Shown in pieces: positions 2,171-62,160 of a stretch of DNA of 64,000 nucleotides. The notes beneath the pieces were generated by a model that was not told where the DNA came from, did no database searches, and saw nothing but the letters and a program-made list of their open reading frames with translations. The DNA comes from Nereocystis luetkeana (taxonomy: Eukaryota > Sar > Phaeophyceae > Laminariales > Laminariaceae), in assembly GCA_031213475.1 (NCBI GenBank), contig JARUPZ010000018.1, forward strand, positions 8,196,406-8,260,405, in the 5' to 3' direction. Positions within the stretch are counted from its first letter, which is position 1. Each line of letters begins with the position of its first letter. The position numbers and the translations under genes are program-made.

Positions 2171-3859
2171 TTTGAAGCCTTTTCCGGCATGACCTAAACT
2201 CTATTGATTCGTGTCCGTTGTCCGTAACACGCTCAGTCTCTAGTCTAAGTTTCCCTTTCCCGGTCGATGCCGCCCACTCGGGGCCGCTGCGGCCGTGGAG
2301 CCGCTGGGGGGCCGCAGCAGCAGCGATGACCTATCGACGTGCGTGGCTTGCCTCCTCTCGGCAGGGTGTCCTACTCCAATAGCTGCTGCTAGAAGTGTAG
2401 TATAGCTATATATGAGTGGCTTTTACAGCGGTGTGGTCCCTGCCACCTCGACAGTAGTAATACATCCACACTCTCCATGTTTCCCAAGCCCTCTCTCTCG
2501 AATACGGCATATTTAGTATTGCACCACTGCTCCGTTATCTGTCCTAAAACATTATTGGCCTCACTGCAGAACGGTAGACAAGCCCGCGCGGCAGGCGATA
2601 ATGTGCGTGTTCGAGCTACATATGTGTATAGTATACCTGGTGTAGCAGTGCCGCTGCTGTCGTTTGTGAACGATAGCCGCCCTTCAAGACCCCACCGCCC
2701 CTATCCACAATATCTGACTCGCTCTCTATATATTGATATGCATATATAATATACTTGGTATAAAAAAAATATATATATATATAATATGTATGTATATATA
2801 TCTCTCCCTCTCACTCTCCCTCTCTTTCTCTCCCAAAATATACGACGTTCATACATACAGCAAGGACTACGACCCTCAAAACATTTCATAGTTTCATTTC
2901 CGTTCAGCGTGGTACATCACAGCACACTATTAATACAAGCACCATACCAGGTACTCGCATACTCATGCGAGTATTAGTAGGGCCAACGCAGGGCTAGCGC
3001 CACGACCGTAGCCGTGGCCACATCACTAATTAGATTGAAATACAGTGAACAGTAGCGTTACCATGCTTTACAGACCCACTGCAAAGTGCTCATCAACAGC
3101 GCAAACCATCCTCCACACACCAAATATATAACAAGATGACCGGAAGAATTCTAAGAGGAAGACAGTTACAACTTTTGATAACGAGGAGACTGACATACAT
3201 ACGTGTACGTGGTGAAAATATAGTACGTACACTGTACCTGGTGCACACTTACGCACATTACGTACAGTAGCGTCGACATATCAAAATCGATAGTGGAAGG
3301 GCTACTGTTGGGTGTGCTTTTACGTGACAGGTGACCCCTCAGGTATGGTTGAACGCGACCCCCCCCCCCCCCCCCCCCTCCCCAGCAGACAGGAGTAGAG
3401 TAGTAGTTAGCGACACGAGGCGTTGGGAGTTCAGCGTTTCGGTAAACTCCATATATTTGGCCATGCACTGCGCCAAAGACGGTGCTCATGTGAAACTGTT
3501 GCGGTGTAACCTGTTCTCCCTACGGGCGGGGAGGCCCGAGTAAAGTGGAGCATCACCCTCGATATCGATGGCGCCTACGTGCTGGCTGGGTAAGAATTTA
3601 ATTTGCGCGCAATGGGTACAGTGTCATTAATGATCGGATCGCTGCCGCTGTACTGATTCTCGGGGAAAAATGACGTACATGGATAGTAACAACCTCCATG
3701 TTTCCTTCGCTCGTTACCATGCTGAGGGGTTGAGTAACACGGCACGGAATAATCGATATCAAAGTGGAAGGAGAGATGGTTCCGTGCGCGGGGTGCTCAG
3801 AGGCTAAGGGGAGGAGGGTAGCTGCTCCGTGGACTACGGTACCAGTTACCGCCCGACCA
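2171..3859. other. Intergenic, microsatellites only
   Basis: I see no gene. Contents: an (AT)n and CT-rich microsatellite at about 2765-2835, a TACCAGGTA word at 2945, a TATTAATA word at 2928, and a C homopolymer of about 20 at 3360-3380. Confidence 0.4.
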
Positions 3860-3902
3860 ACCCCTGGTACGCCTCGTTGATCTGTCGGGAAAGAGGTTCC
3901 GG

Positions 3903-4229
3903 TCGCCTGGTGGCGCGGACTACCTCATGATCATCGTGGACGAATGCTCTAGGTTGTCATGGCCTTACTTCCTCGCGAAGAAGCCCGATGTGCCAGCTGT
4001 CTTAGCCAAGTTTCTGACGACAGCCGTGCGCGGGGCACTACGCCCACCGTGGAGTGTCTGCGCTCGGACAATGGCGCCGAGTTCACGAAGCAGACGTCCG
4101 TGGCGCTACTGGGCTACCATACGTAGCATCCCCCTCGAAAACTCGCCCGTCGACTCTCCCAAGCACAAGAGCATGGCCGAGCGCTTCATAGCGATGACGC
4201 TGGAGCTTGCGATGGCTTCCTGCCCGTAG
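3903..4229 (+). pseudogene. Copia integrase core fragment
   Basis: The frame beginning MIIVDECSRLSWPY reads the first part of the rve-type integrase catalytic core. The region around 4050-4090 (SDNGAEF) lies in another frame, and the end (SPKHKSMAERF, about 4157-4190) returns to the first, so small indels interrupt it. The family joins retrotransposon cDNA to host DNA; this copy cannot. Confidence 0.75.
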
Positions 4230-5215
4230 GCCCCTCGCCTGTTTGGTGGTGTGCCTCTGTCGCCGACGGGACCTCTCAGGGTGGGAGCACTCGTTTAGGC
4301 TTGGCATACTCGAAACATGACCGCGAGAGTGGGGGGCAAACCGGAAACTCGGCCCCCGTACCAGACACGCCACGGTAAAGCGTCGTCCCCGCGGCTGCTC
4401 CGTTTCTGAAGCCCCGGTCCCACCACGTAAAACGGGCACTATAAGTCGGAGGCAAAGGCGTAGTCGAGCTATATCTGAGCGGTCGTAGCCACCATCCGCG
4501 CAACTGCTGTAAAATCTTGCTTCCGTCCGGACGAAGATCGTACACGCGGGATGTCACCTGGGAGTAGCCTGGCCTAGGAAGGCACTCGCTGGGGTGTTAC
4601 CCGCGGAATAGGGAGGCAAGACCCCCCCACCGTCGTCGCCACCGCTGGACGTACCGGAACCCCCTGAAGACTCGGGGGTGTGGTATAAGTCTTCGTCGCC
4701 CCCGATAGCGCCCTCCGCACCGTCACCGCAGCCACCGCCGCTGCCTTCACCACCAGCGCCCTCGACGCCGTCGCCACCGCCACCGCCGTCACCACCACCG
4801 TCGACGTGGTCGCCGCCATCGTCGTCGCCGCAGAAGAAGCCGCGGCACCAGGCCCGGCCCGGCAACTTCCACAACGTGCCGCCGAGGAGCTGGGGTCACA
4901 TAATCCAGGACCGGGGGATAGCCATAATATTCCGCAGCAGGGGCGGACAAGAGGCGAAACCGCGCGACCTTCACGGCAGGCGTATGGCTCGCGCTAAGGT
5001 AATAGAGGTCGAACTACATCTTGGGGAATATATATATATATATATATATATATGCCGGGAGGCTTCCTTAGCTGAAGAAGTGCCCGATATCGTTGAAATA
5101 TCAATACTAGTTAGTGATTTACTACAGCACCAGGTATGCGTTTCATTGTATGCCTTAATACCTACCTTGGGCGGTGGGGTTGTTCTCTAAGCAGGCAGGC
5201 AGGAGACTCAGAACC

Positions 5216-5600
5216 ATTAGAAGCTACTCCTACCGCCACCTGTGAGGGTGTTACCTGCTGAGCTATCGGGGTGAAAGATCAATCGATTACCCAGCCCAGG
5301 GACATCCTTAAAACACTCTCCCCCCCTTCTGAACGGCGGGATGTTTGGGTCGTCGGTACCGTGTACGGCAGTACGCTGACCTACCCGCTTCGTTTCAATA
5401 TATGGGGGACTAGGGAGGAGATATATTTTTAGGGGCGCACGCGCAAGCGCTTCTGAATAAGGGGCGTGCGAAGTGGGATTCGCACCCGTGTTCTCGGCGA
5501 CGTCAAATGTGAAGGTGTTACCTGCTGCGATATACGGGTAAAAGATCGATCGATTACCCAGCCCAGGATAATCCTTACAACATACCTACCGTAGCGCGCC
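5216..5600 (-). repeat. Two tRNA-like segments in direct repeat inside the copia relic
   Basis: The blocks at about 5245-5315 and 5510-5585 are near-identical (GGTGTTACCTGCTG ... ATCGATTACCCAGCCCAGG). On the minus strand the first reads GATAGCTCAGCAGGTA, close to a tRNA A box. The second is followed on the minus strand by GGTGCGAATCCCAC, close to a B box. Acceptor-stem ends do not pair, so they are not functional tRNAs. They could be tRNA relics or a SINE head. Confidence 0.3.
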
Positions 5601-5947
5601 TCGTATTGGACATGGGCTGCTGTCTTTGATGGCGGAGCTGTAGGGTATCCATCATGCACTCCTCCGCCGAGTTTCACCTCACAGCAACCCGCCTCTGTTC
5701 ACGTGCCCGGTGAGCGAGCTTCCTTAGCGTGTGCGGACGATCACTCAGAGATATATATGGTGCCGGGTTATGGGGAAGGAGATCAGTGGTCTGGCGGACG
5801 CGGGGACGTTTCGGTCGGTGTAGTAACCAACCGGGCTCAACGTTGTTGCGGCGAAGTGGTTGCACAACTGAAAGGCGAACGAGCACGGCAAAGTGGTGCT
5901 GACGACCGCGAGGCTGATGGCAAGGTGTTTTAAACCACACGAAGGTA

Positions 5948-8995: not shown

Positions 8996-9926
8996 TAGGA
9001 AAAGTGGCCGCGTGCGAGGAAGTGTTCAAGGTTGCCAACCGCGAAGAGCTTGTGGAGAAGCCTGCACCTGCAAGAGTATAACTGGTACCAGTACCTGGTA
9101 CGAGCAACTACCATAATATACTCGAAGGGTGTACATCATGGGCATCCACAAAAGTTTCGCCAACAGAACGACGCCGATTCCGAACCGACAACGGTGGTGG
9201 TGGTGGTGGTGGTGGTGGTGGTGGTGGTGGTGGCGGCGGTGGCGGTGATGTTGTGTCGGCTTTTCCGAGACATCAAAGCAAGGAACATCGGCCAAAAGAG
9301 CGTGACTCCTTCCAACTTTCGCCACATCGTCGGGCGGTTGACCTCTCTGCGGGTCATGTCAATCAATGGTAGATGCTGTGCGCGAAAATGGGGCGCTCGC
9401 TCATGGCTCCTGCTGCTCGTGATGATGATGCTATCGGGTTTTCGTTCCACCCATTTTCCCCCATCCACTCAATAGAATGTGCACCGTTTCTTCTTGGCGT
9501 CTGCCTCTCTTCTATAATAAGCTATACCGACGAGGGGGCACATTCGACGGAACTTGACAAAAATTCTCGGCATGGCGCTTCCAACCGCGATAACGTAGGG
9601 ATTGCTGAGAACTAAGAGATGCCTTCTTTTTCCCCTCTACTCGTACAAAACTAAGGTGTCGAGGGTGAACGTAACTACTGTAGTACAAGCGCACCTTTCG
9701 ACAAAAAAAAAAACGAACAAAAAACGAGACCGACAGGAAAAGAAGCGGGGACAGAAAAATGCTACGTTTCTCGATCAAAACGAAAAAAATAAGCATGGCC
9801 GATGGGAAAACTACGGCGTGTCACACCCGGCGCCTTAGCCATACCAACCCAACACACGCACCCCTGGACAACCCATCGACCTAGCAGTTACACGACCTGA
9901 CAAATCAAAAATCAAATCTACGTACG
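8996..9926. other. Intergenic with (GGT)n microsatellite
   Basis: A (GGT)n run of about 45 bp at 9192-9235 and an AT-rich, A-run-rich stretch at 9690-9800. TACCTGGTA at 9092. I see no exon. It lies just 3' of the long minus-strand gene, so its 3' UTR and polyadenylation region should fall near 9,700-9,927. Confidence 0.35.
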
Positions 9927-13000: not shown

Positions 13001-16000
13001 GGGCAGCGCCGTGTCCACGGGCTGACCGTAGAGCACGTAGTTTGGAGGGCGGCCGATGATCCAGCCCTCGCGGCCTCCCAGACATTCTTTCGCTATAGTC
13101 ACCTGCAGTGCGTGGACGAGCGCGAGCCAAGTCGACCGAACAAATAAAAAATAGAAAACAGCACAACGAAAACCCCCACTGAATTGCCCGAGAAAATTAT
13201 GTGCGGCCACGCCTTTCGGCCATTGAGTGCATATACCGGCCGGCACGAGAGGAAAAAAAAATACTGTTCGCTAACCCGACAAGAAAATTGAGCGGCCACG
13301 TCTTTCGGCTACGTGTGATATTATGTACCTGTACCAGGTACATACCAGGTACTACACCTACATACGAATGAAAAGTGGCATTCGCCAGGAGCAGTGGTGC
13401 CACGCTTCCAAGCCTCCGACAGCTACGACCCAAAAAAATGTCGCGGAAACCCCTGCGACACCCCACGCACGCGCCGTTGCCGGAGAGACGAGGCAGCGCT
13501 TCTGACAACTCCTCCATGTCGTACAACTCCTGCAGCCCAAACCAATCCTCCGACAACTCATATAACTCCTACAACTCGCTCAATTCCTGACACTGAAACT
13601 CATACCTGGTACGCTAGTATACAATTCTTACAACGCATATAACCCGATGCTGCTCATGTAGCTATTAATAGCTCCCTACCAGTTCTACCACCTATACAAC
13701 TCCGGCAACCAATGAAACCCCTACAATTCATAAACACAACACCTGCTGAATACAGCATCATACAACTCCTACAACTTACGCCTGATAATACGATCCATAC
13801 TCATATGACTCATACGACTCATACAACTCATACGACTCATACAACTCACAAGACTCATACGACTCATACAACTCACAAGACTCATACGACTCATACAACT
13901 CATGCATGAAAAAAGCGAGAGATCAAGCGAAATAGTGAGAACTCACGTCATCCTTTCCCTTGGTATAGACGGGGGCTCCATGACGGAAACCCGCTAGCTC
14001 GTACGTACCGTTGGCCTGAAGCAGCGCAACGCGCAGAGCGGGAAATAAACGATAGGGGGGAGGGAGGGAGCACGGGGTTTCTCGTCCTTCTGAAGTATCT
14101 GTTGGGTGAGCCGAGGGGTGTGCCAAGGGTTCCACATGTACACGCTAGTCTACTGAATCGGTGTCAGTAAAATAGTTCCTCCTTTTTTTTACTGATCCGA
14201 GTCAGTAAATCGGTGTTCCTCAACTCGGGCGATCGATCATTGATTCCGACAGAAACTCGGTTGCGCATGCGGTTGTTGCTCGCCGCTCTCAAGATATTCG
14301 TCGAATGGTCGGAGTCCAATAACCTCCACCCGTCGTTACCGGTCAGTGTGGGATCTCTTCGTTTTTGGGCGATTCCTGATTGGACAGAAATTACAGGTTT
14401 GTCCCCGCGATTGGTTGTTCATTGCTCTACCATAGGTTGTCGTTGCCTGGGCGTGTTCTGGCAGTCTACTGGTCGACGTCGGTCCATTGGTCGTTCCATT
14501 TGGACGGTTCCTGATTGGACGAACAGCCGTGGTTTGTAACGTGCAACCGGGAGTTAACTTTCGCCTGGTGATTGGTCGGCTGGATTTCATCAATCACCAT
14601 GGGCTGAACAGGCGGCACGGTGACCGACGCCGAGAGGGTCGCCAGCCACAGACAAAAACTGCCTCCGCAGAGGACGAAACTCACGTTGCAAGCGAGCCTT
14701 GAGATCATTCGAAGAAAAAGCAGAGCTCAAACGTCCGGAAACACTCTTCATAAATAACTCACAAACCAAAAAGAAAAAAAGAGCAAGAAACGCACGTACG
14801 TGCCAGACAGACAACACCAACAAAACGTAACGGTGCTTAGCATAGATAGGTGCGTACGTGTGTACGTGCCATAAACAAACAATGAAATGAAAAAAAAGCA
14901 AAATAAAGGTGCTCATCACAGACAAGGCAGGCGGGAAGGCAGGCGCAGTGCAGCATCCCTTCCTGCCAGAATCAGACCAACCAAACCGGGGGAACAGAGC
15001 TTGAGCGAATCACCAATCGACAGAGATACAGCGCGCGCAACCGTAAGCACCAACACGCACATGCACACCCGAAAGGGCACACGCACCTCATTGGCTCCTG
15101 CTCCAAGCAACATGCACTCTGGCGGACAGCGCTCTACGTCCGGGCACGCGACCCTCAAGCGTCGCTTGCTGGAGCCGTCTAGCAGGCACAGGTAGACTTC
15201 CACCGTGCCCAGCAGAGAAATGCCCGCCGCCTGCGGATGCGGCGAGAGATGGGAAAGTCGGCGAGCACCGACGAGGAGAGAGTCTACGTCAATAGTCCAG
15301 TTCCTCTAAAATACCTTCTAAAAATACCTGGTCTTGTTAAAAATTGTGTTTGCAAGATTTCAAATAATCCAAAATCCCAACACCAGAACAACATACCTCG
15401 CACGTGCTTACAACAATGTTACCAGGTCGTCACTGAAAACAGGTTTGGAGTAAAAATGCGAGGACGAAAAAATTACCAGGTACCTGGTCTAGGTTTCGCT
15501 GATTTCTTCCAAAAAAATAATGTAGGAAACATGAAAAATATAATCAGACTCACATCGCAAACAAAAGAAAGACCAACTGCAACCGAAGCAAAAGAAAACG
15601 AGAACGATCTCTTACGAACCACAACAACACAAACCACAGCAACAACTCAAAACGAATTGAAAGGACCTCTCCACGTGGTATCGCTCCCGCGTACCGAACG
15701 ACATCCGCGTATAAACACGGCGGTAGACGTTGCCGACCGACCAGCGATCAACAGCCACAGCACTCGACGACCCTCAGCTCTCAACACCGACGCAAACCAC
15801 TCGCACACCCGCACGCACGCACGCACGCACGCACGCTCGCGAGAACCAATGCTGGCCGAATAACACCGACACCGCACACGCCGCTCAGATGACGAGCCCC
15901 TCCAAGGTCCCACACGGATGCCGGGCGGCGTGCGAGCCCCCACCACACTCGTCCGGAGCCTACACGGACAGACGGCGCCGCACAAGAACTGCCGTCGCCT

Positions 16001-18079
16001 CGATCGCATATCGTGCAGCGAACACCACCCAGGCCTTCTGCACACGGGACACCGACCGGCTCATAAGCACGATGAGCCTCCCAAAGATGCAACAAACCAC
16101 CGCAGAGGCATTCACACACACAAGACGCCCCGCGGCGTACAAGGCTCTACTGTGCGAAGAACAGCGCCAAGATCCAACACGGCGCACGAGCACAAAGCCG
16201 CCACCGTGCAACCAACACCTCTCACGCGCCCTATGCACGCGGCCACCATCCCTGAGGCCCTGGACGGGCGCGCCTCTACCGTGCAACGAACACCCCCGAG
16301 GCCCCGCACAGACACGCCTCTACTGTGCAACGAACACCCCCGAGGCCCCGCACAGACACGCCTCTTTCGTGCAACGAACACCTCCTTAGGCCCTGCACAC
16401 AAACACGAACACGCTTCTCCACTGTCCGACGAGCACCGCTTAGGCACTCCACTACCGTATCACCCTGGGGTCATAACATAACACACCCCCTAGGACGATT
16501 TTCACAGCTCTGGGTTTCTCGTACTGAATACGACGAGCGATACGTCTATGCCTGCAACCTTCTCGACGAAAAGGTTCCAAAGCACCCCTAAAGGCATGTT
16601 TTGGAGGAAACCGGGTCTGAAATTCGTCCAAGGGGGGTGTGTTATCTTATCACCCAGTGTGATAGTGTTCACCGTACGCAACGAACGCTGCTCGTGTATC
16701 ATACATAGGCCCTGCACGGACACCGCGCGGCACACGAGCGCAAGTTCTCTCGCTGCCGCCTAGAGGCAGGAACAAGAGGGGCGCTCACCTCGGCAGCAGC
16801 GACGCCCCCGGGAGAACAGCGAGAGTCCTTTGCGGTCGTCCCATCAACAGACCACCCCGGTCCGCCCCACACCTCCCTCTTGGCCTGTACCGAGAGGGAG
16901 GGGGGGGGGGGGGGGAAGTGAACAAATAAAAAGAGGGAGGAGAAGGCTAAGGTTAAAACTGGTTCGCATCGCACGCACAGAACCAATCGGGATCAGATCG
17001 GGTCAACATACTCACGCGCCCCCGAGGAATTTAACAGCAGCAGCAGGTACTGCGGTTCTGCTGCTATACTGCAACGGGGGCGACGAGATAAATTGACACG
17101 CAGAGCACGTACTTTGCATGTAGGGAGTGTGGCGAGCTGGAGCTTCGGTATCCTCCACCAATCGACGGAGGATTAGAAAACGAAAAACACAAACAAACAA
17201 ACAAACAAACAAATGCGGTGAGTTCAAGTTTTTTACCTTTACCAACCCCACGGAGGATTTTGATGAAAATATTGTTTTTTTTAAAAGAAAACAAAAAAAT
17301 CGAAAAAATCGAAAAAAATCGAAAACAAAAACGAAAACGAACAAAAAATCGGAATCGACTGCCCTCCGCTCTGCCGTGGACGAGCTAGTGCTTCATTTCA
17401 TCCCACTCCGATGAGAAAGCCACTCCAGACGTTTTTTTTCCCCAACGGGTCTTCTCTGCCGAGACCCCCACTGACGCGACCCTAACGGTTATGGGAACGG
17501 GGTCATAACGCTTTGGGCACGCTTAGCAACGTTGGCAAACGTACAAATGGTCAGGCTTGCTAACGCTTGGGAAGGTTTGCAAACGCTTGGTCAGGCTGGC
17601 CAACGTGTAGTCAAGCTTGTTGACGATTGGTAAGGTCTGCTCTCGCTTGGTAAGCTTCGCTACTGCGGCCCTAACGCGGCTCGTGCCGCGGACCTAACGC
17701 TTATTAACGCCGCTCTAACGCTTGATAACGCCGCCTTAACTTCTCATTATGCGGATCTACCGCCTGCCAACGCAACCTAGCCTGGAAAGCCTTGCTATAT
17801 TTCATACCAGGTACATATATTGCTAACGCGGACCTACTGCTTGCTCACTCGGCGCCAACACTTTTCAACGCCGCCGTAAGGGGTACTAACGTGATATTAA
17901 CGCCTGCTAACGCTTTTGCTAAGACAGCCCTGACAAGGTGTTTGTGCGGCAAAAGCAGACAGGCAGATAGGTAAATATATGACCAGACAGACTTAAACCA
18001 CGTAGACAGGCAAACAAGCCAACGGACAGATAGACAGACAGACACAGACAGGCACAGACAGAGAGACAGACAGACAGAC

Positions 18080-18276: not shown

Positions 18277-21200
18277 ACCAAACAAAAAGACAGACAAACA
18301 AGCAAACAGACAGACAGACAAGACACGAGACAAGGCAAGGCAAGACAAACCACCGCGCAAGACAAACACACAAGACAAAACAGGCAAGAAGACATAGCAA
18401 GCGGACGCGACAAAACAGGCCGACAAAAACAAACACAGACGAAAGACGCAAGACACAAGACACAAGACACAAGACAGATGACAGATGACAGATACACTCA
18501 CTGTAATCTTGCGGAACTGCTCCGCCGTTTGCTCCACGAGGTCGTCCAGCTGCCCCCGCGCCCTAACCATCCTCTCCTTAAGGCTGCCCTTATCGCCGCC
18601 ACCCCCACTATTCCCAGGACAGACGCCCGTCGGCGGCGGCGTAATGTTTCCAGCCCCGTCTATCGCATTCCGCCGCAACAAAAAGCTGCGGCGCGATTCA
18701 GCGAACGGAGACAAGACAGGGCGGGAGATAGATGGGTAGTTATAGGTGGGAGCTCTTGGAATGCCTTGGCAAGGTCAGAGTCGTTGCCGTGGGTTGTACG
18801 TGTGGTTTCGGGGAGGAGGGGGGAAGAGACCATCCGCGTTTTATTACCCCGCTGCAATTCCAGGGCCCTTTGTCCTTCTCCCAGGAGGGGCGCGCGAGTG
18901 GGGTCGGATTAAAACGCACAATATAAACGATGCCCTCTGCCTGGTGCTGTACATACCGCGGACAGCGGAATGAAATACAAGAACGTTTATGGTTCTTGCG
19001 TTCGTGATCTGTCGGTGTGTCAAATGGTTGGTACAAAAAAAAAACGGGCGGTCCTATGGCGAGAGGAGATAGATCCGCTAAAAAAACAATTCCAAGACAG
19101 ACACACCACTACTTACATCCAGAAATACGCAAAAGGACTGCTTGGATTGTAACAATATTACACAAAGGGTCCGAAAAAATCCAAGACAAAGTGGTATATA
19201 GGCACTTGTGTCTGAAGGAAATATAGACGGGCCCCTTAAAATATTAACATAGATTAGTTCTCCCTTGTCACCAAAAACAAAAAAGCTAACCTCCACCGTG
19301 GTAACCAACATCCGAAAAAAAAAAAAAAAAAAAACAGAAGTCCCTGGTATGTACTACTGTAATTCAACCAACCTGTTTTCTACTGTGATGACGACCTCGC
19401 CGTCCGCCGCATCGACGTTGATGCCGATGGCCGCCGACTCTGCTCCGGACGGTGTGAGCAGGTCCCCCTCGGCCGGCCTCGACAGGAGAGCAGCCATGAC
19501 CGCGTACGTATCGCCGCCGGAGGAGGTCCGGCTTGACGCGCGGACGATGTCCTGGCACACCTGTACATACACGAAAAAAAAAGCCAATCATTAAGAAGGG
19601 AAAAAAAAAAAAAAAAAAAAAACGGAAACGAAAAATACGGGATACACCAGGTATATACCAGGTAGGTGGGTAACGCCGGATAGGGTGGAAACGGTTTGGA
19701 CTTCGAGGGCGAAGGCGATTAAGATCAGCTAAAGGAGGAGGAGGCGGGGAAGAAGGAGGAATAATAGGATTAAGGCGGGGGGGGGGAGGGGGGGGCCAGG
19801 GTACCATGCCCTGCATGGCCGTAGTCGTAATACCATAAGAGGAGGAGGGGAGGGGGGTGTACTCGATAGGAGAGATGTACTCGACCTCATGAATGGCCGT
19901 AGTCGTATGACCATTGACCCTCGCATCCCTACAATGCCGGGACGGAGCATGTCGGGTTTTCACAGACCAGACAGATTTTGCTTGCACCAAGCGCAAAGCG
20001 CCGTGAGGTGGAGGGCGAGTCGCATGAAGGGCGAGCTGCATCTAACCAAGAACCGCTTGGGAGGCGCACTTGCACATGGATGACAGCTCCAATGAGTTAA
20101 TTTAATTTCCAGTATAGCCACGTCCAGCGACAGCCCTGGGAGTACTACTATATGTAACCGCCTCTTGGGTGCCCTACCATGAAAACTCCGTGATACGATC
20201 AATTCCCTTTTGCGGAGTAAGGGTTCTTTACCTCGCACAAATTATCTAACTCGACGACCAACTGTGGGCGACCGTCAACAAAAAAAAAACAAAAAAACGG
20301 TACCCTGATTGTTTACAAAACAAATCGGAAATAAGAAAACAACGAATATATATATATATATAGAGAGAGAGCGCCGGGATGGTCTGAAACGGCTGGGAAG
20401 GGCACGGCTCTGCGGCAGCGGAGAGCCTCGCGCCCCTAATCCTGACCCCGTAAAGACTCGTTCAGAAGGGAGAGAGACCCCGTCTCTTGGGACAACCGGT
20501 GCGGAGAAATAGACTAATAAAGAACGACCACGTCCGACCGTTTCGCCGACGTGTTTCCTCGAAAACACTCGACCGTTATGCTACTCTCCAAACAGAGAGC
20601 ATACACCCGGCGGCCAGGACTCTTCTCTCAACATGCAAAGAACAGGCTGAACTATTTCTTCAAACACTCGGCTGCTGGGACGGTTCAGAAAGGTTGTCCC
20701 GGCGCGCGGCTCGTTTTTCCTACCCTTGTTATCCAAGTTACCCCCCCCCCCGTCCCCACCACCCCCCCCTACCCCCATCTAGATAACGAAGGCGGACCTG
20801 TAACGGCAATTGTCGCAAATTCTTGAGAAAGCAAGCGCACTTTTATATATATTTTTGAAAGTGATCTTAGTTGATCGACTGCAACTGCTGTACGTTACCA
20901 TAAAAAGAATATATATATATATGCCGAAACCGAAGGTAAGAAATCTCTGTAAATCTGTAACAGTGCCCAAAAACTGATCACAATTTGAATTTTACCCAAC
21001 TACTGCCGTATCATAACTGTACTTGTGCTAACCTACAGTGCTACAGAAAGGAACTGGAACACAATCACTCACCGCCCGCGTCAAGATCTCGTCTCCCACC
21101 ACTAGAGGCCCTATCAGCCTCCGGAGAGTCTTCAGGAGCTCGTCCACATCGCCCTCGAACAGCCGCCCGTTAACCTGTCGGAACCAACAACACGACGACG

Positions 21201-44564: not shown

Positions 44565-44754
44565 TAGACGATCCAGGCCTTTCCGAGGGCAGACTTCTCC
44601 ATTTTATCGTGCGTAGTATCTACAGGTATTATAGCCCGCGTTGGCGGGTGGGAGCGATCTAACCTGCACGATACAGGACGCGTTTCCTGGGTTAGATATA
44701 CGAGTATATATGTACCGTACAGACCCTATAGACTATACCAGGTATGTCGTGACG

Positions 44755-45124: not shown

Positions 45125-45918
45125 CAGCTGGGCCCCACCCCTAAATCCCATACCTGGTATGTACCAAGAGATTTCACAGCCACTGGAAGAGTGCAGCCAG
45201 CACAACTCACTACTCAACCAGGGACCACTACTACTGCTGTACCCCTGGTACGTCATGTACATAGCCGTTGACGGCGCCGGAGGATTGCAGCTTGCTGCCC
45301 TCGGAAAAGCCAAAACCCGATTTGGATGGTGAACACGTCTGATTTCCTATTATTGCCAATCTCCGAGTTCACGTACCGTCGCCCATGAACGTGTGTGTTG
45401 TCTTCACATCAAATCGTCCTTTCTACACAGCTTCATCAGTACACCCAGTGTCCGTCCTGATTCCTGATTCTAGAGAGATAAGTGATTCTGTGGTCACAGA
45501 CTGAGAGACAGAGAGAGGAAGACCAAAAAACAACAAATAATAGCAAATTCAAGTGTTAAGCAAGTGAAGCGTCAGCGTACCGGGTACAAGAACACAACAC
45601 AAGCAAGACCAGAAAACAAGAACAAAAAGACAACAAAACAGGTGGCAAATGGAGGTGTACTGCTGTACGAGGCTGTACGCGGAGGCACCTGGTGCCTGAT
45701 AACTGATAACCTGGCACCGCACCAATGCACCATGAATAATGAATTACCAGGTATGAATCTCGTACGGGATGATGGTGTTGTCGTGGCTTGGGGTGGCTGA
45801 TCTCACCGTAAGCCGTTCTTTCTGTCCACCGAGGTGAAGCACACCCGGTGTCCGTACGAAGGTACTATTGATAGTGTCGGGCCGCGATGGGATTCAGCAT
45901 TCCCATCGCTTCGTACTA

Positions 45919-46023
45919 TTACGGGGGACCATAGTTAACAGGACCAAATATTGTTAGTAAAAATGGATAAACATATAGGTTTTTATGTGTACCATAGGTC
46001 CTGTTAACTATGGTCCCCCGTAA
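45919..46023. mobile_element. MITE family 2 copy
   Basis: Perfect ends TTACGGGGGACCATAG and CTATGGTCCCCCGTAA, flanked by TA at the left and TA at the right. Reads CATATAGGTTTTTATG at the place where the 49.9 kb copy has a TACCTGGTA. Confidence 0.9.
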
Positions 46024-46654
46024 TAACAGCAATCGTCGACCTTCATCGACTTCTGCCAACTCACGCTCTTGACCTTTCAACGATCCATTCATGATAAATA
46101 CAAGAGTAGATAACACATGGGTCTGATGGATTATTTATACAGCAGTTGCTGTATTATTAGTTGAATTTGGACGTGTTCCTTCTTACCTGCTACCGCCGTA
46201 TGACGTGTTTTTAAGGTCTTCCTCGCCTAATCGAGGAAATATTGTACACACAGCAGTACACACATACTCGTACATAGATCTGATGAACTATTTCACCAAA
46301 AAAATATGACAAGTGCGTCAGCTCTGTGACTTCGACCGGTTAAATGGCTGATGCTCGGGTCCTTTGGACCCCGCTCGGGGGCGTCTGAGGGAAAAACAAT
46401 CTCAAAAAAAAAAAATGACGATTTTACACATACTTCACCGTTGGTCACAGGAAAGACCTCGGCCTACCGGTGCACATGGGGTGTGTGTCCGAACTGCAAT
46501 GGCAGATGCTGAACAAATGCGTGCCTCGTATGTAGCAAGGTGATACAGCAGGAGGTGGTCTCTCTACAGTACCGGTTGGGGAGCGACGGATGCCCGCTAT
46601 AACGCCTGTGGACTCGCTTGGCACAGATGGGATCAACCAGTATCGTTTCAGTGT

Positions 46655-47160: not shown

Positions 47161-47377
47161 TCTGACGACATCTCACTAGATATTTCGGATTTGAGACTCG
47201 GGAAAAACACTTCGGCCTTTTGCGCCCGTCACAACAAATGACAAAAATATACCTGGTATATATCAAAATGGTTGAAATGGCACAAACCGACCAAAAATGA
47301 TGGCGGAGAATGAAGGCACATCGTACCGTAGGCCAAAAGGTTGCTATTTTAAGCGCGCCCTCCTCCGATATACTATG

Positions 47378-49793: not shown

Positions 49794-49848
49794 AACCCCT
49801 TTGGGATGGTAGCGACCGAAACATGATAAAACTTACCTGGTATTACTA

Positions 49849-49963
49849 TTACGGGGGGGGGGCATAGTTACCAGGACCAAATATTGTGAGTAAAAATGGT
49901 TAAACATATACCTGGTAGGTTTTTATGTGTACCATAGGTCCTGTTAACTATGGTCCCCCGTAA
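49849..49963. mobile_element. MITE family 2 copy carrying TACCTGGTA
   Basis: Reads CATATACCTGGTAGGTTTT (word at 49,909), where the copies at 45.9 and 58.5 kb read CATATAGGTTTT and TATGTAGGTTTT. TA flanks both ends. Another TACCTGGTA lies just outside at 49,834. Confidence 0.9.
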
Positions 49964-50936: not shown

Positions 50937-51135
50937 GCCAATTTAAAACTCCAGTCTTGTTAAGGGGACAAAACTGCCTACCAGGTAATGTATAATTTCA
51001 TTGGGTTGTCCCCAAAGCGGCGCAGCTGCAGTTTGCCCTTAACCCCTTTAGAACCGCAGTCCCGTTTTGGGGACAAACCAGTCAAATTTCAAGTAGTTTG
51101 TCCCAAAAACGGGACAGTGGTTCTAAAAGGGTTAA
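50937..51135. mobile_element. Two MITE family 1 copies in a row
   Basis: A degraded copy (50,937-51,036) carries TACCAGGTA at 50,979 in its spacer. An intact copy (51,039-51,135) follows, sharing the CCCTTAACCCC junction. Confidence 0.75.
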
Positions 51136-51457
51136 AGGGTCCACATTAATAGTACCTAGCAAAGCTGATGTTCTTCAATGTACATATACCTGGTATATAT
51201 ATACCAGTACGTATGTAAGCACCAGGAAAGCTGGTCCAGGCTGGATTTATTTTCTGGTCATGGGTGCGTTCAACACTAAACTCAGTGCAATGGTTCCCGA
51301 ATTTCCTATTTTCTTGTCAATCTCAGCCCGTCTTTCTCATTGATAGTGTTCCTAGTACAGAGTAGGTGTTCTGTTCTGTTGCTGTCGTGGACAAATTCAG
51401 CGCGCAGACGTTTGAAAATCCTTTCTATACGTACGGCATTCCTTCGTCGCAGTGTCT

Positions 51458-52439: not shown

Positions 52440-53460
52440 ACCTTCGTTAATCCCGTCCGTGCAACGCGGTTCCACAGGCAATAGCGGGCAGTCGGCACGA
52501 CTAATTCTCAATCGGCCCTATAGTAGAGGGAGGCCGCTACAGAGTACCTTGCCAGTACTACCCTAATTTATTTCGTGTGTCCGAAGACGGGAATTCAACA
52601 ATTACCTCTATTTCGTCCCCGAATTCGGAAAATAAATAATTACCTCTATTTCCAGTATCGATATCATTAAAAAATATAATTAGGCGTCAAAATATTGACG
52701 AAAAGCACACAATTTCCAGTACGAAATAATTAAATTGAAATCCAGGCTTATTATTGGCTTCAGTATCTCATACTCGTACGTTAAAAAAACGGGTATAATT
52801 TTGACGACGCCAAAAAGTAGGGACCCCAGCGCTACCTCTCACAGGTATTTGGTATTTCCAGTACTTTATTCATTGTCATCACCGCAGGAGTAGTATTATA
52901 CCTGGTGTCGTACTCATGGTGTTATTTATACCTGGCTGGTAGTACCGTAATTCGCAACCCTACGCCTACGAACGAATTTACGCGCACCGGTCGGTGCCTA
53001 CGAACGAATTCACGCGCAACGGTGCCTACTAACGAATTCACGCGCACCGGTACACCAGACGACACGAGGCTGTGTATCTGTGTATCAGCTGTGTGAGCGT
53101 TTGTGTGTGTGTTTTTTTTGTCTTGTTATCCTCCCCTGCGGATTGGTTGAGGCTGCAGCCACCACAGCTCCTGGTTTTCGTATGGTACTATTAATACAAG
53201 CGTATGTATGCTGTGCGAGTAGGGCCTGATGCACGTAGAGCAGACGCCTGGTATCCGTGCTCGGGCTCTGCGGGTGTTCGACGCAGACAGAGCAACGGAG
53301 TGTCCGTGCTTCTTGTTCGCCTCGAGTGAAGGACGAATGAAGGACGAGTGAAGGGCATATTAAAAATGACTGAACGTTGACGAGTACCAGGTACCAGGTA
53401 CCTGGTACCAGGTATGTACGCACGGTTATCTCACAGATCATCGTGCATATACTATGAGTC
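52440..53460. other. Intergenic, no gene recognised
   Basis: Contains a short direct repeat (ACGAATT(T/C)ACGCGCACCGGT at about 52,971, 53,003 and 53,033) and four overlapping TACCWGGTA words at 53,385-53,414. Confidence 0.35.
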
Positions 53461-54789: not shown

Positions 54790-56500
54790 GGTTTAGAGCT
54801 CTTGACTAATCTACCAGCGGACAGAAGCAGTCCCGGCCAGTGCGCGGGGTGGAGGGGCGTGCTCCTTCAGAGCCCACTCCCTGCACCTGTCATTAGTAGC
54901 TGGGGCCGCCGAAAGCTTTGCCTGGGTACTGTTCGACACAGCAAAGCGTCAGAGGGTGAAACTTCACAGCCTCGAAGGTGAAAGGCGAAAGGTGGGGATT
55001 AAACAGCACCAGAATTCTCGTTTGGGTCGCCGCGCGCCAGTTCAACTATTATATGCCCGGGATCTCCCCTGTATAAAAACGCACAGTCGGCGTGTTGGAA
55101 ACCTTTGGCTCCAGACTCCAGACAACGCCGCAATCGTTAGGTGCGCTTGACCAACTTTACTTGCTGCGCTTTGTTCGAGTGGGCTGTATTCAACGGCATG
55201 CTGTCCTCGGGCTTCGTCGCAGGATTTCTCTGTATTACCGTCGGGCATGCAGTCCTCAGGTAAGGCAAGGTTTCCGCTCACACATCACGACTCTGCAACA
55301 GCCCAAAATGCATTTGTTGCAGAAATAAACAATTCGTGCGAGAGTTTCACAGCAGTTCACGTCTTTGCCCGCAGGTACGAGGTAAAAAGTAAAGCAGACA
55401 GCAACCTCTGCTGTGTGTACCTGTTGAGACATGGTGCGTATCATGCCTGGTGTGGTTCTGTGTCGAGCATTGATGGAGTATTATTGTATCCCGACGCAAG
55501 GAGCCGTTGAGGGCGGATGCAGTGAAGCAGCGAAAGGGGCGACGAACTCTGGTGACGGTGTGTTGTGCTATTAATAGACTGGCGCGCCGACTGCGGTTGT
55601 TGTTCGCAGCGTCCACGTGTGCCCTCGGGCTCCATCAGACGGCGGTATGATCTGCCGCCTGCGGCATTCTGATCACATGCCTGGTACCTGGTACTCGGTA
55701 CCTGGTGGTATATTCGTAGGAGATAGGAGGATATAACCCTCCACATGCTGCAGGAGCTATGTTATGGGTGGTCTTGCTCTCAATATTCTACCAACTGCAC
55801 CGTTTGCTCAGAACACAGCGCAATCGCAATGCTGCGAAACCGACAACTACTACCCTCTCATCCATCTGCTTGCCACAACTGCTCAAGTTTAGTACCGCAG
55901 TCCCGTTTTGGGGACAAACTATTAAAATTTGATTGGTTTGTCGTACTGCAGTTCCAAAAGTATTTGTGAATGCATTTGAGTGTTGTGAATACTCCTACTG
56001 GATATGCTGCCAGACCCGCTACCCGCAATCCGTGTTCGGCTGCGTGTTCGGGCTAACTTCCGTTCGCCATTGACACTAGGCGCGTCGAGGTGTCCTTGGC
56101 GACCGGCCGGTTACCTCTTCGAGTCCGTGGCCGAAGTATCCTCGTGTTTGCGCGTTCAAAACCCGGGGTTGGGGGTCCTTTATCCTTCCGAAGGCGAACG
56201 CCTGTCGAGTCGCTGCAAACTAAACACATCGCGGTTGCTGTACTGCTGTAGTTCGTGCGATGCTCCCGTGTCGAAGGGTGCTACCCGTATCAAATGCGGC
56301 GAACTAACAACAGGATAAAAAGGAGTAGAACGCGATCGTTTACAGCAGTTCAGCAGGACGTCGTATAACTACAAATATGATACCCCCATCCGCAGGTATA
56401 TAGTCTAACTACGTACGAGTACCAGGTACGTGTTTTTTTGTTTGAGTCGAGGCAAGGCCGAGCCTTCACGGGGCTCCCAACTAGGTTCAGATTGAGGGCA
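54790..56500. other. Region upstream of the longin gene, no further gene recognised
   Basis: Should contain the promoters of the divergent longin (minus) and desaturase (plus) genes. I see no TATA-like element I trust. Holds TACCWGGTA words at 55,685 and 56,420. Confidence 0.35.
55884..55961. mobile_element. MITE family 1 copy, partly deleted
   Basis: AAGTTTAGTACCGCAGTCCC at the left; the right arm lost its CCCCAAAACGGG block. About 78 bp remain. Confidence 0.7.
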
Positions 56501-57288: not shown

Positions 57289-60126
57289 GTGAGACTTGTT
57301 CTTTGTTTGCAGTGCCCGGGTGCGCCACACTTAGAAGCAGCGAGCAAAACGCTGCTGGGGTTGCACGAGCCGCGTAATGCCCACCCACTCCCCCCCACCC
57401 TCTCGCGACAGAACCCGGATCCTTGCCTTGGGCGGGCAGGGTTAAGGAGACGGTTGACGCGGATCGCCCCGGCGAAGTCTCCCTCGGCTCTTATCACGCT
57501 CTTGGATACGATGTTCCTTTCTTGCTGTTGACGCTCGGTTAACTACCATTCATGGCGTTCTTCTTACGCGTGCAAACGATTCAGAGCCTGCGAGAGGTGG
57601 AGGCACGACGGTGGTGGCTCCCTCTCCGGAGCCTTCTCCGAATAGGCCCCGAGAAGGTTGGCCGGCACCCCTTCCACGGCCTGTTCGCGACGATCAACGT
57701 GCTCACGGCATCCGTCATTGCTGGCACGGTGAGGCTTTGACATAATACTCGAGCTTGCGCGGCGCGGCGCTATCGCGTAGTAGGCAGAAACCAGAGAGCG
57801 GCGGGTAAGAGACGTACAACACAGCGTTCTTTTGTTTTCACGCATGGCGCTAGGCCTAGACGCTAGGGACACGCTGGCGCGGGCTTTTTGTTTTGTCGGT
57901 CGCTCTCGACGGTGCGACGATGGCGGTGCGGTTCGGCCTACCACGCTCCCCGCCCGCCTCCCCGTCCTGTGGATCTGTCCTGCCCGTCGCCGAAAAAAGG
58001 AAAGGTTCCCGAGCAATCAATATTTTATTGCGGGGCCGATGATTCTCTGTCGATTTTTCTTCGGGCATGGCAGGTGGCGCACTTGATCGGGGAGGGCAAG
58101 ACGAAAGTGTATGCGGCAACAGAAAGCTCCCTCTGGCGGTTCACGGTGGGACTGGCCCAGGCGCTGGCTTGGCAAAGCATATTAGAGTATTACTGGCACA
58201 GGTGACTGACTGACTGACTAACTGGCTGACTGAATGACCGCCGTGCGAAGCGAAGGCGTCGGCGCTTGCTCTGTCCTCGCGGTCGCCAAGTAGGGCTCAC
58301 GGCTTAAAGCCCTTTTTCTAATGCAAGACTAGTCCACACTAAACCCAAAGGTTTTGTGCCCACAAGAGTGGGTGCAGCTCTAAAGGGATTAAGGCGCGCA
58401 AGCAGCTGCACCCGTCACTGGGTATGTTTGTGCGTCAACCATCACCAGGCTCTTCATGGGGGCGACGTTAGACCAGGATGCTGCTATTACGGGGGACCAT
58501 AGTTAATAGGACCAAATATTGTTAGTAAAAATGGTTAAATATGTAGGTTTTTATGTATACCATAGGTCCTATTAACTACGGTCCCCCGTAATAATAAAGT
58601 TATCCATACGCCACCCTCTGCCCACGCTCAGCTCAAGGCCTAGCTGAAGGCGTACCCGCATACCGCCCCCGCGCGCCGCCTCCGCACGCCGTACGTCGTT
58701 TCCCGGTCCCCGCCGGCAAAGGTTAATGCACCTGCCGGTGGTATACGCGAGGCTGCACAAGTACCACCACTTCTACAAGAGCCCTGAGCCCTTCGACGAC
58801 CTGGTGGGTTACCGTTGAGGTGCGCAGGACTCACTGCCCCTCGGCTCCAGCTGCAATTTCGCAACCAATTACGACGGATTGTTTTTTGGGCACGTGCTAT
58901 AGGTGCGGCCGGGTGGCCCCTCCAGGCTGGTCTCCTAAGAAGGGAGTCGGTGCCATGGGAAAGGACGTGGAGAGTGTCGCGAAGAGGGTTGTCCCAAGGA
59001 TGTCGCTGCTGTTGTATGTTCTGTCGTGGGCTGGGGCAGAGGAACTGCTGCCATTGCCACGTGCAAACCGATACAAGTTTCAGATTTTCATACAGGGTTA
59101 CCCTCAAAACGGTAAATCAGTGTTGTGTTCATGTTGCGAGCTCCTAGTATATTGTAAGATCCTTCGTTTGACCGCCAACCCCCCCCCCCCCCTCACCCCC
59201 CCCCCCCCCCTTCCCGCCCCACCCCCTCTTCCTTTGCTCCGCTGATTCCCATCTCCTTTTGTTACTACCGCCATGTTCCATATATTCATCCGATTCGCGC
59301 GAAGATGATCCATCCCCTGGAGGCTTTCGGATACTGTCTTCAGCTGTACTCCCCTCCGTTCGTGTTTTCGATGCCGATGTCGAGTTTCGTGGCGTACATG
59401 GTGGTTTGCGGCACGTGCGGGGTTCTTGACCACAGTGGGGTGGCGTTTTCGGTGCCGGGGTTGTACGACACGGCAGGTGAGGAGAAGGCGCAGGCTCATG
59501 TGATAAGCTTGGGGGCGGTTTTTTCGGCGAAACCCGGAGAGGCAACACACCACCTCCATGGGGAGAATGCTATACGTATCTGCTGATGTTATGCTCCTTT
59601 AAAGGAAAAGTATAGACCGAATGTCCCCCTGTGCTTCAAGTACACGGCGTGTGCTACGTGATGTCACGGCCCTCTCTTCTTGTCTTGCTGGGCTGCAGGA
59701 GGGGTTAGGCATCGGTCTGGAAGGAAACTCTCTCCCGCCCCCGCCCCGCTCGTGCGAGATCTGCCACGCGTTATTGGTTCGAACTCATTTCTTTGCTCGA
59801 TGAACAGATTTTTGTGCCGACGATCCAGCAGCCCCTCCGAGGCTTTCCTAATTCGTCCCTCGGAATTTAGTAAAACTGGCAGCAACATCAGCATCAGCAG
59901 CAGCAGGAGTAGCAGCGGTACTAACGCGATCGCCGATTCTGTACCTGCTCTTCCTCGCCCCCTCTCTTGCTCGTTGCCAGATCACGACCGTCACCACTCG
60001 CGTTTCGAGGTGAACTACGCTTTTCCGTTCCCCTTTTTAGACGTCCTCCACGGCACGTACGAGGGAAGCTTCTTAGGAAAACGATACAGCTGCGGCGGGC
60101 GATCACGACGAGCGTATCGGTCATAG
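57223..60126 (+). CDS. Fatty-acid hydroxylase / sterol desaturase superfamily gene, 3' part
   Basis: Six exons join in perfect phase and end at TAG 60,124-60,126. The product is an integral-membrane di-iron oxygenase of the ER. The histidine motifs are visible: HRLMH (exons 58,074-58,201 and 58,722-58,803), HKYHH, and HDRHH (last exon). The conserved segments QWKVQP, PFDDL..HPLEAFGY, GVLDHSG and NYAFPFPFLDVLHGTYEG also fit. Members act as sterol C-4/C-5 oxidases or alkane/fatty-acid hydroxylases, and I cannot tell which this is. The N-terminal exons with the first membrane spans lie upstream of 57,223 and were not found. No frame damage is seen, so the gene is probably functional. Confidence 0.85.
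57657..57728 (+). CDS. Desaturase-family gene exon
   Basis: 72 bp reading VGRHPFHGLFATINVLTAS then VIAGT, donor GTGAGG, phase 0. The start could be three bases earlier (AAG) because two AG acceptors lie together. It matches the family segment ahead of a membrane span. Confidence 0.7.
58074..58201 (+). CDS. Desaturase-family gene exon
   Basis: 128 bp, acceptor ATGGCAG, donor GTGACT, phase 0 in and 2 out. It reads VAHLIGEGKTKVYAATESS, LWRFTVGLAQALAWQSILE and YYWHR. The terminal H-R begins the first histidine box. Confidence 0.85.
58201..58230. repeat. (GACT)n microsatellite at a splice donor
   Basis: GTGACTGACTGACTGACTAAC starts at the donor GT itself, so the repeat abuts the exon end. Confidence 0.7.
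58487..58591. mobile_element. MITE family 2 copy in the desaturase intron
   Basis: Perfect TTACGGGGGACCATAG and CTACGGTCCCCCGTAA ends, TA on both sides. It lies 130 bp before the next exon and has the unmodified TATGTAGGTTTT centre. Confidence 0.9.
58722..58803 (+). CDS. Desaturase-family gene exon
   Basis: 82 bp, acceptor CCGGCAAAG, donor GTGGGT, phase 2 in and 0 out. It reads LMHLPVVYARLHKYHHFYK then SPEPFDDL. Completes HRLMH and carries HKYHH, both iron-ligand boxes. Confidence 0.9.
59305..59476 (+). CDS. Desaturase-family gene exon
   Basis: 172 bp, acceptor CGCGCGAAG, donor GTGAGG, phase 0 in and 1 out. It reads MIHPLEAFGYCLQLYSPPF, VFSMPMSSFVAYMVVCGTC and GVLDHSGVAFSVPGLYDTA. Includes a membrane-spanning stretch and the D-H of a further metal-site segment. 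Confidence 0.9.
59981..60126 (+). CDS. Desaturase-family gene terminal exon
   Basis: 146 bp, acceptor TCGTTGCCAG, phase 1 in, stop TAG. It reads DHDRHHSRFEVNYAFPFPF, then LDVLHGTYEGSFLGKRYSC and a basic tail. The first Asp codon is split. H-D-R-H-H is the last histidine box. A partner retroelement begins about 25 bp after the stop. Confidence 0.9.
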
Positions 60127-60550: not shown

Positions 60551-60649
60551 ACCCTGGTTGTCTAGCTCAAGTAGTCAGCGGCATGTTTTTCAGTGTCGTT
60601 GCCAACCGACGGCAACCCAGCCTATATATCAGGGTATAATATAATACAT

Positions 60650-60825
60650 AGGGGGAGGGTACTCATGTCATGCATGGCCGTAGTCGTATGAACATATACC
60701 CTCGCACCCCCTAAATGCCGATCCGGAGGCGGTGTGCGTGTATGCCTCCGAGGGGGGCGGTGACCACATTTATTGCTTGCCTTAGTCAAGTGATTTTTTA
60801 CCTTTCGAGACGGAGGGGGGGGGGT
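60650..60825 (-). mobile_element. LINE-tail fragments
   Basis: A partner-element 3' end (60,655-60,725) next to a LINE 3' end (about 60,763-60,817), each bounded by a G-rich tract. Confidence 0.6.
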
Positions 60826-61344
60826 TAACCAGTACTGAATCTTCTAGGGATTGTATTGCTACCACAGCAATAGGAGTAGCTGCAGGCCGTTTATTACACG
60901 TCATCGTACGTGCGTAGTCGGTGAGGGTAGTGCCTGGATACGTTCTCGGACGAGGCAGATGGAAGGCAGTGGTTTCGGACGACCCGTGCGGGTGGTGTGG
61001 CTTGTTCGCGTGGTGGCGCTGACGGAACGGAGGGGGAGTGGGGCGGTCGAGTCGGGGAAGACCTGTCCTTCGAACAGACGCTAGCGTCTTCCCTTTTCTT
61101 GGTGGTTTGCGAGGAAGGAAAACGTGACTTTTGTCATACGTGCGCGTACTTGAAAGCAGTTGCAGTCACCAGTTGCCACTGGTACCACGAGGACCCCGGC
61201 CCGTGTCTCTCTTGTTTTTTGTTCCTGTTCTTTCGTTATTGTCTGCCCCTTTTCTTATTGTGTCGAAATGCGTACATAGCACTGCGTTCTCGTGACCTCA
61301 CTGCCCCTCCCCCATTCTTGCAAGACGCCGAACACCTCACCGTG

Positions 61345-61465
61345 CTCCGAAGCAACGTCTGCTTGATCGGTAAAAACCCGACGTGCTCTGTCCCGGCGTT
61401 GTCGGGGTGCAAGGGTCTATGTTCATACGACCACGGTCGCGCATGATATCGAACACCTTCCCCCC
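61345..61465 (+). mobile_element. Partner retroelement 3' fragment, plus strand
   Basis: GTAAAAACCCGACGTGCTC, TTGTCGGGGTGCAAGGGTC and GCATGATATCGAACACC, followed by a C-rich tract. Confidence 0.65.
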
Positions 61466-61469
61466 CCTC

Positions 61470-62160
61470 CCCGGGCCAATTCTGAAGTTTAAAGCCGGGT
61501 ATTTCATTAAGTGGTGCTGTATAATGGGTGCAGTTTTCGTGAGCAGCGGCGTCATCATCGTTCGGCTCCAGAAGTCTCTGTTCCGGAGCAAGGAGTAACT
61601 GCGAAAAAATACCGGCACGTTGTGGGCGGTGAAGTACGCGTGGCAGTGCCCGTGCGTAGCGGGGTTGGCGAGGGGAGCACCCATTGTTAGTATGTACCGC
61701 TCTTTTATTGAGTACCAGGTATGCAGAATTGAAGAAACGTCGGCTGTGACCGAACGTTCGATATATTTTTTATGGTTTGTGCTGTGCTTCCACAGCTCCA
61801 GCAGATAATCGATTTACGCTTCATGATCTACAAACGGTTGTTGTCCCCAGGAAGACATATGTCCGATCTTGTATTACCAGGTATGCGGTTTTATCATGGC
61901 TCATGTTGCCGGGTGGGACTCGTAAAAACTGAATGATCTTAGCGCGTGTTTCCCGGGGTACATAACGTGTAAAGCGTACTGTATGCAGATCCTGCACAAC
62001 CTCTCACGACGGCACCAGACGAGGAGCTACATGATCTACTGTACTACTGTAGATAGATAGATGGGAGATATCATGATCTGTGTTGATCTATCCGATCTGT
62101 CCGAGCTGTGAGTGCCTTCGGTCGATTGTCCTACGTAGGGTATGGAGCTCGTGGAAGTTA
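61470..62160. other. No gene recognised
   Basis: A plus-strand frame (61,470-61,598) has a hydrophobic stretch, CIMGAVFVSSGVIIV, and ends LFRSKE then stop. It is isolated. TACCAGGTA at 61,714 and 61,875. Confidence 0.3.

Follow-up and report, generated by a model that had tools for sequence, protein, structure and literature searches.

In this study we analyse the nine-letter word TACCWGGTA (W being A or T) in a 64,000-nucleotide stretch of the genome of the brown alga Nereocystis luetkeana (contig 18, 8196406-8260405; hereafter the window), taken from an assembly of 465,085,209 bases in 1,987 contigs. The words, referred to below as scars, are insertions and do not derive from drift, and most of them most likely record an earlier insertion event at TA. 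In our view they are probably the footprints of a TA-targeting cut-and-paste transposon that leaves a 5-base self-pairing overhang.

Abundance of TACCWGGTA

The window contains 41 exact TACCWGGTA words (25 TACCAGGTA and 16 TACCTGGTA), the first at 2945 and the last at 61875-61883. An initial annotation had reported about 40 of them over 2945..61883, and the positions that it listed were correct except for 61,714, which is 61,713. It had also put the number expected by chance below one. Markov models of orders 1-3 give means of 0.6-0.9, that is about one word against the 41 found; the higher means obtained with orders 4, 5 and 6 (2.4, 12 and 28, respectively) arise because those models have learned TACCWGGTA itself. 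When TA-N5-TA words in the window were sorted by core, CCWGG accounted for 41 and the runner-up core for 8.

The word was counted in the whole genome (465 Mb) as the initial annotation had proposed, with the same pattern read backwards as a control, and the result was not near-random: 182,395 TACCWGGTA were found against 1,744 reversed controls, an approximately 100-fold difference. Twenty 10-kb stretches, sampled at one fixed position from twenty contigs, hold 60 TACCWGGTA and 1 control. A larger set of 338,013 bases, made of the window, the 20 sampled stretches and 13 transposase stretches (L033-L045), holds 120 TACCWGGTA, 5 TACCSGGTA and 2 reversed controls. The centre of the scar in this set is A in 71 cases, T in 49 and C or G in 5, as is to be expected if the remnant pairs with itself except for a central mismatch that can be resolved to either base. 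Scar density in the window is about 1.6 times the genome mean and is uneven, with no scar in 4-8 kb and none in 20-28 kb, a region that includes a long open frame and the highest GC content of the window.

Other TA-bounded words also exceed expectation in the genome sample (TACGTA, TACTCGTA, TACGACTA, TACWGTA and TACCGTA); some of these may be footprints of other elements and some are simple repeats. Scans of viral contigs gave no match for a triple scar unit or for the family B word, and a double unit was met in 9 contigs, each carrying that pair alone except L002. This bacterial-looking contig (L002:1975-2270, IMGVR_UViG_3300031776_000001) has three TACCWGGTA in 2.3 kb, beside repeats containing GTAACACGATGC, and these are probably unrelated to the algal scars. 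Among the matches listed in a text search of the literature, TACCAGGTA and TACCTGGTA were met on other subjects and TACCWGGTA did not occur, which does not imply its absence from print.

Insertion in repeat copies and target preference

Two repeat families of the window served as natural controls: family A, a palindromic repeat of about 110 bp, and a second one, family B. Between family A copies the difference is precisely CCWGGTA at a TA; it is seen at five sites of the window and one decayed site, which fall on two target positions. Where the copy at 45923-46029 has AAACATA-TA-GGTTTTT, that at 49856-49969 has AAACATA-TACCTGGTA-GGTTTTT. Once the 7 bases are removed, the joined flanks of scar 49909 are 96.7% identical to 45931-46022 over 92 ungapped bases, and when the 7 bases are kept the alignment opens a gap of exactly 7. 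The joined flanks of scar 44375 match eight window places, seven of them ungapped after the same removal. In an alignment of 11 family A copies, the 7-bp gaps lie at two TAs: target 1 holds the scars at 38728, 39202 and 44375, among which the two W letters occur in the same orientation, and target 2 holds those at 39246, 49909 and, in decayed form, 30943. The initial annotation had set gradual mutation of the word against a 7-bp insertion; between these paralogous repeat copies the change from TA to TACCWGGTA is a 7-bp step.

A profile built from scar-free family A copies was run over the 338,013 bases and parsed 42 copies at 37 distinct places, some having matched on both strands. It returned 42 insertions, of which 12 have a length of 7, the commonest length; eight of these 12 rows are the scar sequence (7 distinct sites, one decayed and L034:3909 included) and four are not. 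Eight exact scars lie inside the 37 places. In a search with joined flanks, 13/101 scars matched without a gap near the junction, some within simple repeats, and the matches outside family A include the window scar at 40148, L014:4504, L020:831 and L029:9283.

Preference for the target was analysed on half-flanks read outward from TA, using the 152 that have no neighbouring unit in the window and sample. T is favoured at offsets 0, 2 and 5 and A/T at offsets 5-7, and the composition returns to background beyond offset 8. The frequency of T at offset 5 is 0.55 against 0.24 (p 2e-15) and that of A/T at offset 6 is 0.85 against 0.51 (p 1e-18). This rule was first seen in the window and recurs at the 59 sites outside it (T at offset 5 in 59/118 half-flanks, p 2e-9; A/T at offset 6 in 96/118, p 4e-12). 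When the word is oriented by its A form, the preference is present on each side separately, with and without the window. A TA dinucleotide stands at offset 5 in 42/152 half-flanks, compared to a background of 6.5%.

As the scar is itself a TA-N5-TA word, it should therefore be a preferred target, and this would explain the tandem units. The spacing of CCWGG pairs peaks at 7 and 14. The whole genome contains 15,917 double units (control: 2), and uniform insertion would give about 1,200 by a rough estimate that assumes about 0.058 TA per base. The mixing of W letters within tandem groups argues for separate events. Given that T exceeds A about twofold at offset 2 of the 152 half-flanks, the target rule predicts more TACCAGGTACCTGGTA than TACCTGGTACCAGGTA; TACCAGGTACCTGGTA occurs 4,522 times genome-wide and the ratio of the two is 14:5 among the matches listed, a ratio that was known before the prediction was framed.

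Family B is a palindromic repeat of about 100 bp that reads TTAA-CCCTTTTAGAACCGCAGTCCCG..., with 18 stretches aligned within 8886-55960 (for example 37150-37262 and 51034-51135). Its TTAA border suggests that it may be a piggyBac-type non-autonomous element.

A proposed transposon footprint and its alternatives

In the mechanism that we favour, a transposon would insert at TA and duplicate it. On excision, the transposase would cut one strand at the tip of the element and the other strand five bases inside, each flank retaining a 5-base 3' overhang, CCAGG (or CCTGG). The overhangs would pair via CC and GG, leaving A opposite A (or T opposite T) at the middle base, and end joining together with mismatch repair would fix the centre as A or T to give TA-CCWGG-TA. 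The same product would result from another geometry, a 1-base stagger behind two retained bases, in which the element would end in TA-CCA.... The layout of the scar would suit the preference of the enzyme, so that scars would be re-hit and tandem units would build up. We infer the former element, the geometry of the cut, the route of repair and the re-hitting alike. As for the Tc1/mariner-type footprint that the initial annotation had proposed, its duplicated TA, its 7-bp step, its A-or-T centre and a target preference on both sides were recovered, and the donor and the excision step were not. An element that moves in a strictly conservative way and is present in a few hundred copies could in principle, given millions of generations, have produced the observed number of scars, and an extinct element could likewise account for it.

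Excision footprints are normally too short to be recognised by sequence, and the frequency of transposon departure is therefore hard to read from a genome. A nine-letter scar about 100-fold above its control would constitute a countable fossil record of departures, with a target rule and a relative age. Mobile DNA would have added more than 1 million bases in steps of seven, with few if any elements remaining visible, and the scar suggests a transposase whose cut is unusual. That the roughly 180,000 seven-base insertions represent a TA-targeting process new to the literature consulted, either a non-multiplying transposon with a 5-base stagger or a donor-free 7-bp unit that prefers itself as target, is conceivable but rather doubtful. 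If the former is true, scars would far outnumber elements.

Several observations weigh against excision footprints. The family A scars L021:6298 and L025:5762 show no clean 7-bp gap in the profile alignment, the family B scar at 50979 aligned less cleanly and without a clean 7-bp step, and the empty relatives of L020:831 carry CA, not TA. A blunt automatic test for empty sites separated poorly (8/101 scars against 42/913 other TA-N5-TA words, 22 of these 42 coming from one satellite stretch and one being a decayed scar), and it is therefore the inspected alignments that carry weight. One-mismatch variants, counted in 278 kb, are found mostly in the outer TA (T>C 26, A>G 17), and core C>T-type transitions are fewer (11 and 7). 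This concentration is not what plain decay predicts; it could be explained by insertion at CA/TG targets or by correction during repair. The avoidance of C at offset 1 is clear in the window and weak outside (15/118 against 0.22, p 0.01). Doubles with the same letter are in excess, counted by eye as 40/59 plus-strand doubles among the matches listed, which makes a contribution of local duplication probable. The window, the sampled and the transposase stretches revealed no element bounded by TA-CCWGG, and no inner 8-letter word recurs at the same offset behind at least 3 of 117 half-sites (264 kb), which by our estimate caps the size of a uniform donor family at a few thousand copies. A genome search for the Tc1-type transposase DDE_3 (PF13358) gave no match (3/14 control genomes matched), and the pogo-like elements with both ends clear begin with CAG.

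Further searches for a donor gave the following results. The initial annotation had seen no full-length donor in the window. Pairs of terminal inverted repeats beginning TACCWGG or CCWGG, sought in the window and the sampled stretches, yielded just tandem scars or weak matches. Comparison of the 150 bases behind each TACCWGG, all against all, found 23 pairs alike from the word onward among 379 outward sequences; many of these are family A scars, and two that were traced are a local duplicate and the end of a pogo-like element. The repeat boundary TACCTGGCTGAACCAAATAC (30635 and 31061) was considered as a donor end and rejected, being present, within the sequence examined, only in two adjacent copies of a diverged repeat with no matching second end seen. 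The genome search for the mariner Transposase_1 (PF01359) also gave no match, a null that is uninformative because no control genome was matched either.

The search for DDE_1 (PF03184) matched the genome 28 times, and the 13 stretches L033-L045, which include 14 of these matches, were examined without finding convincing terminal repeats beginning CCWGG. Both ends are clear in four elements, all TA-flanked: L039, L043 and L044 carry CAGTACCGGCCCGCTAGTAAGAAAC, whereas L040 carries CAGTGGGGGGCCCTATATAGTGCAGG. L042 is a diverged copy of the kind seen in L039, L043 and L044, and single ends are present in L033, L041 and L045. The scars might be footprints of these pogo-like elements (ends CAGTACCGG or CAGTGGGGG) completed by extra repair bases, and two of the four do sit at a TA beside CCAGG, L039 directly after TACCAGG and L040 after TTCCAGG. 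However, L043 and L044 are not beside CCWGG, the outer C and G have no source in the element, and tips of this sequence would leave TACWGTA, on which ground CAG-ended elements were rejected as the source; we hold this origin to be very improbable. Apart from these elements, a transposase-like frame in L034 has its closest named relatives in Ectocarpus sp. (34-62% identical) and nearer ones, at up to 94%, among metagenome proteins. Taken with the size and composition of the genome, this one mobile-type gene provisionally indicates a brown-algal host. L035 carries DDE_1 in a 1,888-bp inverted duplication (704-2591 and 4205-6092, 99.5% identical) that adjoins satellite-like repeats also present in L016 and L025, and this stretch is scar-free.

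With about 180,000 copies and no visible donor in the sequence examined, the scars could also result from a donor-free micro-insertion of 7 bp, in which an enzyme would cut at TA (or between Y and R) and add a fixed self-pairing sequence, ACCWGGT or CCWGGTA then propagating. The net product is equally ACCWGGT placed between T and A, and CACCWGGTA/TACCWGGTG, the commonest variant class (26 in 278 kb), is what insertion at C^A or T^G would yield. That class, however, carries the target signature only weakly (30/44 with A/T at offset 6, p 0.02; no enrichment of T at offset 5). A transposase footprint predicts both a centre limited to A/T and the target preference, a low-copy active element would escape a sample of 0.3 Mb, and we know of no enzyme that performs such an insertion. 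We therefore consider a donor-free origin unlikely, yet the least unlikely of the alternatives. Spread by substitution and selection, as for HIP1, a short palindrome of cyanobacteria, would suit a near-perfect palindrome with a constant core and a high copy number, the word then serving protein binding or acting as a signal for methylation or recombination. Empty and filled repeat copies nevertheless differ by a 7-bp step and not by substitutions, so that HIP1-like spread, which involves no change of length, does not fit family A, and tandem units carry both W letters; this reading was rejected, its chances being small. Smallest of all are those of the word being part of longer dispersed repeats or of a microsatellite. 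Some scars do lie in family A and in short tandem runs, but the flanks of different scars appear unrelated, and of the 23 alike pairs among 379 outward sequences many are the family A scars; both readings were rejected.

Comparison with known systems and other features of the window

The terminal repeat of the mariner element Mos1 begins CCAGG, and the donor of an excision footprint would resemble it in targeting TA and in having a tip that reads TA-CCAGG. The internal eliminated sequences of Paramecium, which are linked to Tc1/mariner ancestry, are programmed deletions back to one TA, whereas a 7-bp gain remains here. In the available text of the papers cited below, Sleeping Beauty and mariner transposases nick 3 nt inside the element and leave 3-nt 3' overhangs (PMC7827188), so that, unlike the scar, a mariner excision would leave 3 bp. 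The Sleeping Beauty footprint is attributed to end joining and given in a W-centred form (PMC2874221), Tc1/mariner footprints are put at 2-4 bp with ATATATAT as the target of ZB (PMC7913693), and Passer is given a footprint of 0-4 bp and the target AAGTACTT (PMC9976928). The scars are like these footprints in their duplicated TA, their short symmetric remnant and their AT-rich palindromic target preference. They differ in a remnant of 5 bp, which lies outside the quoted range of 2-4 bp (PMC7913693) and would be a longer variant of the Tc1/mariner footprint, in a preference that is sharpest at offsets 5-7 from TA, in their number per genome (about 180,000) and in a donor that was not found. In Ectocarpus, likewise a brown alga, Tc1-mariner elements are common (17 families and 11,912 copies, most of them non-autonomous; PMC12477816), in contrast to the lack of DDE_3 matches here, and the main text of that survey contains neither the word footprint nor the word excision. 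The internal eliminated sequences of Paramecium are, as far as the consulted part of PMC3464196 goes, similar in being TA-bounded events in very large numbers.

Table 1. Scars and scar-free family A copies in the window, and pogo-like elements in the transposase stretches.
Feature	Position	Remark
scar TACCAGGTA	2945..2953	exact word
scar TACCTGGTA	9092..9100	exact word
scar TACCAGGTA	13332..13340	exact word
scar TACCAGGTA	13343..13351	exact word; 11 bases from scar at 13332
scar TACCTGGTA	13603..13611	exact word
scar TACCAGGTA	15474..15482	second unit TACCTGG uses its last TA
scar TACCAGGTA	17805..17813	exact word
scar TACCAGGTA	19656..19664	exact word
scar TACCAGGTA	29074..29082	exact word
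decayed scar TACAAGGTA (TACCTTGTA)	30943..30951	family A copy, target 2; 7-bp insertion relative to other copies
scar TACCAGGTA	31054..31062	second unit TACCTGG uses its last TA
scar TACCTGGTA	31936..31944	exact word
scar TACCTGGTA	34206..34214	exact word
scar TACCAGGTA	37102..37110	exact word
scar TACCTGGTA	37921..37929	exact word
scar TACCAGGTA	38139..38147	exact word
scar TACCAGGTA	38728..38736	family A copy, target 1; 7-bp insertion relative to empty copies
scar TACCAGGTA	38911..38919	exact word
scar TACCTGGTA	39202..39210	family A copy, target 1; 7-bp insertion relative to empty copies
scar TACCTGGTA	39246..39254	target 2 of the family A copy that also holds the 39202 scar
scar TACCTGGTA	40148..40156	joined-flank counterpart ~41264-41340, ungapped near junction
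scar TACCAGGTA	40783..40791	exact word
scar TACCAGGTA	41491..41499	exact word
scar TACCAGGTA	42216..42224	tandem pair, first; TA in common with 42223 scar
scar TACCAGGTA	42223..42231	tandem pair, second
scar TACCTGGTA	44375..44383	family A copy, target 1; 7-bp insertion relative to empty copies
scar TACCAGGTA	44736..44744	exact word
scar TACCTGGTA	45151..45159	exact word
scar TACCAGGTA	45745..45753	exact word
scar TACCTGGTA	47250..47258	exact word
scar TACCTGGTA	49834..49842	exact word
scar TACCTGGTA	49909..49917	family A copy, target 2; empty counterpart 45931-46022
scar TACCAGGTA	50979..50987	diverged family B copy; no clean 7-bp step in alignment
scar TACCTGGTA	51187..51195	exact word
scar TACCAGGTA	53385..53393	four-unit tandem, first
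scar TACCAGGTA	53392..53400	four-unit tandem, second
scar TACCTGGTA	53399..53407	four-unit tandem, third
scar TACCAGGTA	53406..53414	four-unit tandem, fourth
scar TACCTGGTA	55685..55693	tandem group, partly decayed
scar TACCAGGTA	56420..56428	exact word
scar TACCAGGTA	61713..61721	exact word
scar TACCAGGTA	61875..61883	exact word
scar-free family A copy	45915..46030	empty reference, both targets
scar-free family A copy	58484..58596	empty reference
scar-free family A copy	39595..39702	empty reference
pogo-like DDE_1 elements	L039:1111-3084, L043:925-3152, L044:939-3122; L040:2154-4761	two TA-flanked families, perfect or near-perfect CAG terminal repeats

The scar-free, GC-rich part of the window includes a stop-to-stop frame of 1,092 residues on the - strand (24061-27339) with long glutamine, glycine and proline runs. 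Frames read through stops were searched against Pfam over 28.0-31.0 kb (3 frames) and over 54-64 kb and 1-10 kb (6 frames each), and gave only matches below the cut-off, one to FA_hydroxylase and one, far below it, to SR-25. Multi-exon pieces on the + strand at about 58,600-60,060 resemble a fatty-acid hydroxylase/sterol desaturase gene (PF04116, 24.1 bits, below the cut-off of 31). Two - strand frames, at 29053-29613 and 62036-62758, have the stretch FEVNHLNHRG in common and are probably a dispersed repeat.

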